Assembly: GCF_025403485.1 (NCBI RefSeq)
Contig: NZ_CP099966.1
Span: 4,338,501 to 4,402,500, forward strand
DNA from: Chryseobacterium paludis
GTDB lineage: Bacteria > Bacteroidota > Bacteroidia > Flavobacteriales > Weeksellaceae
Direction of reading: 5' to 3'
Length of the DNA: 64,000 nt
Below the pieces are notes generated by a model. It ran no database searches. It worked only from the letters and a program-made list of their open reading frames with translations, and was not told where the DNA came from. The translations under genes were made by a program, and so were the position numbers. Below, piece by piece: positions 30,869 to 32,762 of this stretch. How positions within the stretch are numbered: the first letter of the stretch is position 1; each line of letters opens with the position of its first letter.

Positions 30869-30896
30869 AAAGTATGCTGAAGAGCATACTTTTTTT
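30867..30896. terminator. Bidirectional terminator
   Basis: AAAAGTATGCT-GAAG-AGCATACTTTT with T-runs on both strands, between the convergent TerD and GNAT genes; it overlaps the last codons of both. Confidence 0.85.
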
Positions 30897-31368
30897 ATCT
30901 AGAAAACTTCATCATATAAGAATGTTCATCCTCATTGATTACTTTAAAACCTAAATTGGCATACAGTTTTTGTGCTTTATTGGTTTTTAAAACACTTAAT
31001 GAAACAGGTTTCCTGGCTTCTATAGCTTCCTGAATGATATCTTCTAAAATAGATCTTCCAATTCCCTTTCCTTGTTGTGCCGGATCGATCTGGATTTGCA
31101 TAACCTCTATATGATCGCTATTTCTGTCTATTTTTAATAAACCAATAGGCTCATCATTTAAAATAATAATGTGTGCTTTTTCAAATTGGTGAAGCACTCT
31201 CTTTATTGCTGATTCTTTTGTTACCGGCAAATTTGAACTGAGAAGATGTTCAGTCATTGTTTTCATTCTCAGATCGAGTAGAAAGTCCATATCAGTCCCC
31301 AGTGCTTTTCTGTATTCTAATTTTAAATTCATTTTATTCAAGCCTTTCATTTGAGCTAATGTACTCAT
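30895..31368 (-). CDS. GNAT family N-acetyltransferase
   Basis: A 157-residue acetyltransferase. The acetyl-CoA binding motif A region reads VMQIQIDPAQQGKGIGRSILEDII (Q/R-x-x-G-x-G/A as QGKGIG). Motif B is KAQKLYANLGFKVINEDEHSYMM. The acceptor is unknown. It starts 9 nt downstream of the tyrS stop, so it is the second gene of the tyrS operon. An alternative ATG at 31332 (MNLKLEYRK) matches the usual family N-terminus as well; either could be used. Confidence 0.87.
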   Translation of the reverse strand: MSTLAQMKGLNKMNLKLEYRKALGTDMDFLLDLRMKTMTEHLLSSNLPVTKESAIKRVLHQFEKAHIIILNDEPIGLLKIDRNSDHIEVMQIQIDPAQQGKGIGRSILEDIIQEAIEARKPVSLSVLKTNKAQKLYANLGFKVINEDEHSYMMKFSR

Positions 31369-31377
31369 AATAAAAAT

Positions 31378-32577
31378 TTATAGAAGTTCAAAAAAAGCTC
31401 TTTTCCCAATTTTAATTTTTGTTTCTTTGGCCACTTCAACCTCCGCATTAGGATTAATCATTTTTACACTGTTGATTTGAACTCCACCATTTTCGATCAA
31501 TCTTCGTATCGAGGATTTACTTTGATCATTTTTTAGCAGATGGCATAAATCAATCAGCATTATTCTATTATCAATAAAGTTTAAAGTATCAATAAAGATT
31601 GGTTCAAATACTTTTTCCTCGAAATTCTTATTCTGAAACTGATTGCTGAAAAATTCTTCTGCAAGTTCTGCTTCTGCTATATTGTGGTATTGGGTAATGA
31701 TATTTTTTGCAATTTGTTTTTTTATACTCATGGGGTTTTGTCCATTTTCGATTCCTGATTTTAGATCATTTTTTTCAGCAATTGAAAAATCGGTTGTAAG
31801 GTCAATAAATTCATTGATCAAAGTGTCAGGAATAGACATTGTTTTTCCAAACATCTCGTTAGGCCCGTCCGTCAATCCGATAAAATTATTCAAAGATTTA
31901 CTCATTTTTTCCTTTCCATCAAGTCCCTTTAAAAGGGGCATACACATAACGATCTGTGGTGGCAGCTGATGTATTTCCTGTAACTGTCTTCCCATAGTAC
32001 AATTGAAGAGCTGATCTGTGCCACCAATTTCAATATCGCATTCAATTTTTACAGAATCAAAACCCTGTAAGATCGGGTATACCAGTTCATGCATGGCAAT
32101 CGGGTTATTTTCTGTAAACCGTTTATTAAAGTCATTTCGGTGCATCAATTGTGCTATGGTTACTTTTGATAATAATTGGATGATTTCTGAGAAATTTAAA
32201 GTATCTAACCAATCAGAATTGAATACAATTTTTGTCTTTTCAATATTAATGATCTTTGAAAGCTGATTGATATAAGTCTGCGAATTATGAGTAACATCGT
32301 CGATACTCAAGGGCTTTCGAGCTTTATTCTTTCCTGTTGGGTCACCAATCCTTGCCGTAAAACTTCCAACCACAATGATGATCTGATGACCGAGATCCTG
32401 AAATTGTTTTAATTTTTTAAGCACTACAGCGTGTCCCAAATGTAAATCCGGAGCTGTGGGATCAAAACCCAGCTTGATCGTGAGTTTTCTTTTTTCTTCT
32501 TCGGCCTGTTCTAACTTCCGTTCCAAACCGTTTTGAGGTAGAATGATTTCTACATTTTCTTTTAATAAGTTGATCAT
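31378..32577 (-). CDS. tyrS: Tyrosine--tRNA ligase (TyrRS)
   Basis: A 399-residue class I synthetase that charges tRNA-Tyr. The HIGH-type motif HLGH is at residues 46-49 in GFDPTAPDLHLGHAVVL. The KMSKS loop is present (GLDGKEKMSKSLNNFIG). Also seen: GSFTARIGDPTGKNKARKPL, the tyrosine-binding region with HELVYPILQGFDS and EIGGTDQLFNCTMGRQLQ, and a C-terminal S4 domain (SSIRRLIENGGVQINS). Length and motif spelling look like the second TyrRS type (TyrZ-like, ~400 residues) rather than the ~430-residue form. I cannot tell if it is the only copy. A peptide-coding attenuator precedes it. Confidence 0.95.
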   Translation of the reverse strand: MINLLKENVEIILPQNGLERKLEQAEEEKRKLTIKLGFDPTAPDLHLGHAVVLKKLKQFQDLGHQIIIVVGSFTARIGDPTGKNKARKPLSIDDVTHNSQTYINQLSKIINIEKTKIVFNSDWLDTLNFSEIIQLLSKVTIAQLMHRNDFNKRFTENNPIAMHELVYPILQGFDSVKIECDIEIGGTDQLFNCTMGRQLQEIHQLPPQIVMCMPLLKGLDGKEKMSKSLNNFIGLTDGPNEMFGKTMSIPDTLINEFIDLTTDFSIAEKNDLKSGIENGQNPMSIKKQIAKNIITQYHNIAEAELAEEFFSNQFQNKNFEEKVFEPIFIDTLNFIDNRIMLIDLCHLLKNDQSKSSIRRLIENGGVQINSVKMINPNAEVEVAKETKIKIGKRAFFELL

Positions 32578-32597
32578 TTTGTTGAATTTTTTGCATG

Positions 32598-32625
32598 AAA
32601 AAGCCCGAACAATTCTATTCGGGCT
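32598..32625 (-). terminator. Attenuator terminator upstream of tyrS
   Basis: On the minus strand AGCCCGAA and TTCGGGCT form an 8-bp stem, followed by TTTTT. It lies 20 nt before the tyrS ATG, a position that only makes sense for regulation. Confidence 0.87.
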
Positions 32626-32693
32626 CTATATATTTAAGAATAATTTTTTATTGAATTACAGATATAGAAGATCTTCCCGAACTATTAATCGGG
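32598..32693 (-). promoter_or_regulatory. Ribosome-mediated tyrosine attenuator of tyrS (1:2, 2:3, 3:4 structure)
   Basis: Read on the minus strand. Segment 1 (CCCGA, 32693-32689) starts at the last base of the third Tyr codon. It pairs with segment 2 (TTCGGG, 32681-32676). Segment 2 can also pair with CCCGAA in segment 3 (within 32623-32618). Segment 3 otherwise forms the terminator stem with segment 4 (32609-32602). A ribosome stalled on the Tyr codons would cover segment 1, free segment 2 and block the terminator. This is the classical attenuator logic. Confidence 0.82.
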
Positions 32694-32746
32694 TAATAAT
32701 ATGTACTAAAGAAAGGAAGGCGTAATATGTTATTTAAATGCTTCAT
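32648..32746 (-). CDS. tyrS leader peptide with three consecutive Tyr codons
   Basis: A 32-codon ORF from ATG (32746) to TAA (32648) on the minus strand. Residues 9-19 are RLPFFSTYYYP; the Tyr codons TAT TAT TAC lie at 32701-32693, and the Pro codon after them opens hairpin 1:2. The ATG is 8 nt after an exact TAnnTTTG element. The remaining residues (rich in Ser and Ile) have no special pattern. The peptide itself is probably not functional; the codons sense charged tRNA-Tyr. It is too short to be found by normal gene calling. Confidence 0.82.
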   Translation of the reverse strand: MKHLNNILRLPFFSTYYYPINSSGRSSISVIQ

Positions 32747-32754
32747 CTGAGTAA

Positions 32755-32762
32755 CAAAGATA
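32755..32762 (-). promoter_or_regulatory. -7 promoter element TATCTTTG of the tyrS leader
   Basis: Exact TAnnTTTG match on the minus strand, about 180 nt upstream of tyrS and immediately before the leader ORF. Confidence 0.65.

Follow-up and report, generated by a model that had tools for sequence, protein, structure and literature searches.

A candidate tyrosine-keyed leader-peptide attenuator ahead of a second tyrosyl-tRNA synthetase gene in Chryseobacterium and other Bacteroidota

The window, as we call the whole 64,000-nucleotide stretch of Chryseobacterium paludis DNA that was analysed, carries on its minus strand a tyrosyl-tRNA synthetase (TyrRS) gene whose ATG, at 32577, lies 20 nt past the T tract of a predicted terminator. 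The leader ahead of the gene is about 170 nt long and codon-constrained, and this stretch folds better than its shuffles (z -2.51; 4 of 200 shuffles were equally good). The original prediction described a ribosome-mediated tyrosine attenuator at this site. All of the parts that it named were found in place, on the minus strand, when the sequence was re-read. The features of the locus are as follows.

32755..32762, minus strand: promoter-like box TATCTTTG, which fits the flavobacterial -7 box TAnnTTTG, with the leader ATG 8 nt downstream
32648..32746, minus strand: leader ORF of 32 codons, MKHLNNILRLPFFSTYYYPINSSGRSSISVIQ (ATG at 32746, TAA at 32648), from sequence read-back and codon-position bias in relatives
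32705..32737, minus strand: leader codons 4-14, LNxILRLPFFS, conserved at the amino acid level in the comparison of relatives
32693..32701, minus strand: Tyr codons 16-18, the first two invariant among relatives
32689..32693, minus strand: arm 1, CCCGA, partner of arm 2, from folding and comparison
32676..32682, minus strand: arm 2, GTTCGGG, partner of arm 1 or arm 3, from comparison and model folding
32617..32623, minus strand: arm 3, CCCGAAT, partner of arm 2 in the antiterminator (94.2% of cells paired, 37 sequences)
32602..32625, minus strand: terminator hairpin of arms 3 and 4 (98.2% of cells paired; double-sided changes at 5 pairs)
32618..32625 and 32602..32609, minus strand: the two terminator strands, AGCCCGAA and TTCGGGCT, from sequence read-back
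32598..32602, minus strand: T tract of the terminator (T5), from sequence read-back
31378..32577, minus strand: second TyrRS gene, 399 aa, with HLGH and KMSKS (TIGR00234, PF00579)

The gene behind the leader encodes a complete TyrRS, with HLGH and KMSKS motifs and matches to PF00579 and TIGR00234 (337.5 bits); its best solved relatives, 6bqy and 1h3e, are both named tyrosyl-tRNA synthetase or ligase. Elsewhere in the same genome lies a housekeeping-type TyrRS of the KFGKS type (G000:C1:2227797-2228918), which is 28% identical to the window enzyme. Because the genome holds this other TyrRS, the window gene is an accessory one, and a role as sole or housekeeping tyrS is ruled out. Close relatives of the window enzyme (E<=2.1e-41) occur in 102 of 148 Chryseobacterium genomes, two of them as partial matches (residues 137-398 in G021 and residues 1-87 in G112). 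TyrRS matches number two in every one of these 102 genomes and one in each of the other 46. The predicted target of the attenuator is thus indeed a TyrRS gene, but the second copy rather than the housekeeping one. In this the locus agrees with attenuators of auxiliary synthetases, whose target is a second synthetase, and the physiological role of the second TyrRS would be that of a backup enzyme.

No such leader precedes the housekeeping-type tyrS in any of the nine regions, of 12 fetched, in which the start could be placed (five from genomes with the window-type gene and four from genomes without it). The single short frame with a Tyr pair among these nine starts, at L137, is eight residues long. 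Across the phylum, 272 of 395 genomes have TyrRS matches at E<=1e-60, with 40-47% identity among the matches listed beyond the genus, and the leader was not found at any of the 26 distant KMSKS-type TyrRS loci read (of 27). Plasmid matches, in 13 records, are all below 60% identity.

Ahead of the second TyrRS gene itself, all 93 distinct upstream regions that were read carry the leader; they come from 110 loci in ten named Bacteroidota genera. Given this recurrence before one gene, the leader unit is more than a product of chance. Within the genus (148 genomes searched), 102 genomes have the window-type gene, and 101 of these gave a leader peptide match at E<=2.5e-4; the 46 that lack the gene gave none at E<=1e-3. 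The single gene-bearing genome without a match is G021, where the start of the gene is itself unmatched; in G124 the best leader copy and the TyrRS gene are on separate contigs. Profile search found one leader, of the second type described below, in a genome without the window-type gene (G109, E 4.8e-6). At this locus (L156, about 1501-1596) the 3' arm of the terminator is absent and other genes lie downstream, and on its sequence this leader is a relic.

The leaders fall into two groups. Seventy-eight of the 93 belong to one clade of the TyrRS tree, which we call the Chryseobacterium type, and 15 lie outside it, from Arenibacter, Gelidibacter, Winogradskyella, Oceanihabitans, Faecalibacter, Weeksella, Vaginella, Sphingobacterium, Flavobacterium and one Chryseobacterium. 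All 15 genomes of this second group have two TyrRS above the cut-off, and at its Weeksella locus (L094) arm 2 resembles the Chryseobacterium type. The start codon of the C. pennae leader is GTG, and three leaders were scored from an inner ATG. In a sample of the order, profile matches at E<=0.01 came from 19 of 296 genomes: 15 strong ones from within the genus (downstream genes were inspected for all but G254, G330 and G379), the G109 relic and three weak ones that look like chance. A class sample gave matches in 3 of 395 genomes, one being the window's own and the other two not convincing. Leader-bearing genomes outside the genus therefore seem rare, although absence from these samples is soft, as at most 26 and 19 candidates were scored per genome in order and class, respectively.

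The search for further leaders in the window's own genome returned one profile match only at E<=0.01 (26, then 53, of 59 first-look candidates scored). Pattern matching gave 17 places there, and the other 16 have no Tyr pair in the stretch inspected. In G976 (L219 and L221, about 1446-1600), two copies of an ILRLPFFSKYY frame stand beside TTCCAC-type simple repeats. They precede a small protein gene of a different kind, no such terminator was seen, and the likeness is probably due to chance.

A fixed gene neighbourhood is not general. Named loci were scanned by exact octapeptides, and among the 80 of 217 places that were retained, a sample that favours near relatives, a relative of the window's upstream oxidoreductase was in the flank of 41 and a relative of its GNAT gene in the downstream flank of 38, often non-adjacent. 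Neither was present at any of the 15 loci of the second group. In the window, the GNAT acetyltransferase gene (30895-31368, minus strand) begins 9 nt past the TyrRS stop, and may be cotranscribed with TyrRS.

The original prediction described three Tyr codons in a row. They are present in the window, but only the first two are invariant in relatives, encoding Tyr at both positions in 93 of 93 regions; the third position is variable (Tyr in 21/78 and 9/15), which rules out three Tyr codons as the signal. The refuting conditions proposed at the time that are open to sequence comparison did not hold, and the attenuator reading is supported overall. The relatives keep not only two Tyr codons but also the 2:3 pairing, which is formed in 94.2% of cells of an alignment of 37 sequences, a hand-chosen subset of the 93, and includes a U-A to C-G double change. 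The terminator is kept as well (98.2% of cells), with double-sided changes at five pairs. Sliding the partners by 1-3 columns lowers pairing to at most 53.3% for 2:3 and 47.5% for 3:4.

At the changing position of the 2:3 helix, 23 sequences have U-A and 14 have C-G. Terminator arm 4 follows the change to C-G: of these 14 sequences, 12 have G-C there and the other 2 have G-U. This is the only double-change pair in the 2:3 helix, a number not above shuffles; the paired cells and the covariation score are above them (0/500). Fifteen of the 37 sequences do not form the last 2:3 pair. Since the covarying change tracks the two leader groups, few evolutionary events lie behind it.

The 1:2 helix differs between the groups. 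The Chryseobacterium type uses CCCG/CGGG, located 3' of the Tyr codons, whereas in the other group the Phe-Ser-Thr-Tyr codons themselves act as arm 1 and pair with UAAUA..UGCU-GG. Of the 1:2/2:3/3:4 set originally proposed, 2:3 and 3:4 covary, but the off-state 1:2 hairpin is weak in the window, where the ribosome-free probability of 2:3 is 0.52. Spacing is tight: the distance from the first Tyr codon to arm 2 is 19 nt in 77/78 leaders of the Chryseobacterium type and 21 nt in 13/15 of the others. The leader stop codon of the Chryseobacterium type lies 17-32 nt past the start of arm 2, and a terminating ribosome would therefore not always stand over arm 2. At L086, the frame right after the Tyr codons departs from that of the relatives while both 1:2 arms persist, which is what a purely RNA-level constraint would predict for this part.

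The leader thus combines the elements of a classical attenuator, namely an ORF that by its codon bias appears to be translated, tandem cognate Tyr codons at the control position in 93/93, mutually exclusive 1:2, 2:3 and 3:4 pairings (1:2 being group-dependent) and a predicted intrinsic terminator ahead of the gene. We modelled the folding of the RNA through arm 3 with a stalled ribosome, represented as a fixed footprint that ends 13 nt beyond the point where the A-site codon begins, and with no kinetics. With the first Tyr codon in the A site, the predicted probability of the 2:3 pairing is at least 0.95 in 93 of 93 leaders. For the RNA alone, the medians are 0.02 and 0.06 in the two groups; before arm 4 is made, the value exceeds 0.5 in 16 of 93 leaders, including the window, which is just over at 0.52. 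Once arm 4 has been made, the median for 3:4 is 1.0.

The position of the ribosome matters in the model. Counting the first Tyr codon as 0, medians of P(2:3) in the Chryseobacterium type are 0.97-0.99 while the A site holds a codon from -1 to +2, and drop to zero at +3 and beyond. The invariant Tyr pair occupies model positions 0 and +1, where the antiterminator is predicted to be freed best, and position +2 would work as well, in keeping with an optional third Tyr. At codons -9 to -2 the medians are 0.42-0.64 (0.42-0.66 in the window); in the other group they are 0.35-0.98 over the same codons, with 0.98 reached already from -5. Since ribosome positions this far upstream already give intermediate P(2:3), the difference between the two states is modest, and the switch may leak.

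Promoter-like sequence is placed close to the leader ORF. The TAnnTTTG consensus for flavobacteria is named in the available part of PMC9723704. In the relatives the box reads TAnnTTTG in 48 of 93 regions, TAnnTTTA in 36 more and neither in 9; one or the other lies 4-9 nt (once 15) upstream of the leader ATG in 84/93. TAnnTTTG occurs within 35 nt in 48/93 regions, compared with 2.7% of base shuffles. The transcript would accordingly be expected to start very near the leader ATG.

Comparison of sequences establishes the ORF, the Tyr codons, the alternative helices, their covariation, the tight spacing and the constant link to the second TyrRS, and from these we infer the course of events from transcription start through translation and stalling to read-through. 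Transcription would begin just upstream of the leader ORF. With plentiful Tyr-tRNA, the ribosome would pass the two Tyr codons and arm 2 would be bound by arm 1 or covered; with arm 2 occupied, arm 3 would be free for arm 4 and transcription would stop. When Tyr-tRNA is short, because tyrosine is lacking or the housekeeping TyrRS is blocked, the ribosome would pause while its A site holds a Tyr codon and would cover or open arm 1, so that arm 2 could capture arm 3. The 2:3 pairing would then prevent the terminator, and the second TyrRS would be made. We consider it highly likely that the unit regulates an accessory, inducible TyrRS through ribosome-mediated transcription attenuation, with charged tRNA-Tyr as the signal that it senses. 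The leader very probably turns this TyrRS on only when tyrosine-loaded tRNA is short.

Unexpectedly, upstream of its Tyr codons the leader is held nearly constant in amino acid sequence (LNxILRLPFFS), with variable third codon positions. On the tree of 93, parsimony gives 30, 11 and 99 changes at codon positions 1, 2 and 3 for codons -13 to -5 before the second Tyr, with 25 amino acid changes, versus 86, 75 and 69 changes and 140 amino acid changes for codons +1 to +9, where there is no codon periodicity. Mean pairwise differences over codons -13 to -3 of the 78 Chryseobacterium-type leaders are 0.087, 0.049 and 0.354. This periodicity points to translation of the leader, and the constraint 3' of the Tyr codons is RNA-like. 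The hisG leader of the same genus shows weaker periodicity (0.176/0.097/0.207 over seven codons before His, 30 loci), although it is a single control that differs in length and divergence.

RNA constraint seems to reach upstream of the Tyr codons as well. The Leu of RLP is CTT in 62 of the 78 Chryseobacterium-type leaders, and 49 of these 62 can form an extra helix, GUCUUCC/GGAAGAC or an 8-bp form, that overlaps arm 2. Pairing with the stretch 3' of arm 2 in the 62 leaders averages 7.10 bp, compared with 5.08 bp in synonymous shuffles (z -1.65). In the 16 non-CTT leaders and 14 of the other group, where Leu is mostly TTA or TTG, the helix is on average no longer than expected by chance (4.62, with 4.90 in shuffles; L090, among these, has maybe six pairs), yet the LNxILRLPFFS residues are kept. 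In the Chryseobacterium type, the native codons give stabler folds than synonymous replacements do (z about -1.6 to -2.0), with z still -1.12 in the 16 non-CTT leaders and -0.64 in the other group, and part of the constraint is therefore RNA. Both peptide and RNA constraints seem to be present upstream of the Tyr codons, and the extra helix may explain part of the conservation of LNxILRLPFFS. The leader thus has the conserved nascent peptide of arrest-peptide leaders, a class to which tnaC- and erm-type leaders belong, with RNA constraint as a partial alternative.

These observations bear on whether the nascent chain takes part. Tentatively, LNxILRLPFFS in the exit tunnel might help the ribosome to stop at the Tyr codons, or might sense a further signal such as free tyrosine or a tunnel-binding drug. 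The drop in codon periodicity after the Tyr codons, its weakness in the hisG leader and the persistence of the residues in helix-poor leaders would all fit such a role. However, conservation by itself is no proof of stalling, the residue ahead of the first Tyr varies (E, T, N or A), the stabler native folds make the constraint partly one of RNA, and the comparison with hisG involves the one dissimilar leader. A wider version, which we put forward as speculation, is a hybrid sensor: a codon-reading attenuator whose peptide has been selected across Bacteroidota because LNxILRLPFFS sets off or adjusts the ribosome's halt at the two Tyr codons, and which has spread with the accessory TyrRS, the two forming a portable ‘spare synthetase on demand’.

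Conversely, the conserved coding part could act as RNA only, serving as an outer arm that would maintain the off state by pairing with the sequence that overlaps arm 2. The long helix of the CTT leaders, and the use of the Phe-Ser-Thr-Tyr codons as arm 1 in the other group, agree with this idea, but we think it unlikely, as the amino acids persist where the helix is at chance length and third codon positions are free. It is highly improbable that the ORF encodes a small trans-acting protein with attenuation as a by-product: the N-terminal half is conserved as amino acids and peTrpL offers a precedent (PMC7298713, available part), but the peptide that follows the Tyr codons varies freely, to the point that L086 reads another frame there, and the leader adjoins the same gene in all 93 regions. 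Least credible of all is a T box or other RNA aptamer that senses uncharged tRNA-Tyr or tyrosine directly beside an incidental ORF; tyrS and tyrZ genes of Bacillota are under T boxes (available parts of PMC3315439 and PMC9437257), but the leader is short and codon-constrained, the window holds no match at the gathering score of any Rfam family, and a relaxed Rfam search gave six sub-threshold matches nearby, none of them a T box. Sub-threshold matches over the leader and terminator (32589-32704, minus strand) include MicC (E 0.16), His_leader (E 0.16) and Thr_leader (E 3.4), and are taken as chance or likeness of shape.

The attenuator proposed here has relatives among known systems. Vecchione and Sello reportedly described in 2010 an auxiliary, antibiotic-resistant TrpRS gene under ribosome-mediated attenuation. 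By description, that system shares with ours a leader peptide with cognate codons, an antiterminator and terminator, and a second synthetase as target, whereas ours uses Tyr, belongs to Bacteroidota and has a conserved peptide part. In E. coli, pheST, which encodes the sole PheRS, has the pheM leader; it is likewise a classical peptide attenuator of a synthetase gene, while the target here is accessory. The original prediction associated peptide attenuators with synthesis operons of enterobacteria. This was too narrow, as synthetase-gene peptide attenuators are reported in gamma-proteobacteria and Streptomyces, with Streptomyces trpS2 and leuS as candidates and pheST attenuation also named (PMC1262725, available part). 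Bacillus subtilis tyrZ, under T box and MarR control (PMC9437257, available part), is also a second TyrRS gene controlled by leader RNA, but through a tRNA-binding RNA instead of a translated leader.

Closer to home, leader-peptide attenuation was proposed in 2021 for biosynthesis operons of Flavobacterium psychrophilum (PMC9723704), the available part of which mentions synthetase 5'UTRs only as structured. The class of bacteria is the same, and so is the general mechanism proposed, with a synthetase in place of biosynthesis operons. The earlier remark that no such attenuator was known for a synthetase of Flavobacteriia therefore needs the addition that a flavobacterium has already yielded published clues to leader peptides, at its biosynthesis operons. 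In the window's genome itself, hisG is preceded by the leader MKPNFLTLHHYYHHLC (L189, about 1156-1320), behind which stand a terminator-like hairpin and its T run. Like the Tyr leader it is a short ORF with cognate codons, but its peptide outside the His codons is less codon-periodic. A His leader was found at all 30 hisG loci read, of 59 matches in the genus, with a perfect terminator stem in 24, and such attenuators are thus probably in use in the genus.

The literature searched, with subscription papers and supplements outside its scope, contained no Tyr-keyed peptide attenuator, and its full texts did not contain the string LRLPFF. As far as that literature shows, the leader would be the first tyrosine-keyed peptide attenuator, and a clear case in Bacteroidota. 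It would also be a natural on-demand circuit for a spare synthetase, a task for which Bacillus uses a T box and Streptomyces a Trp leader. Finally, the switch from peptide to RNA constraint at the Tyr codons would make the use of the nascent chain by attenuator leaders directly testable.
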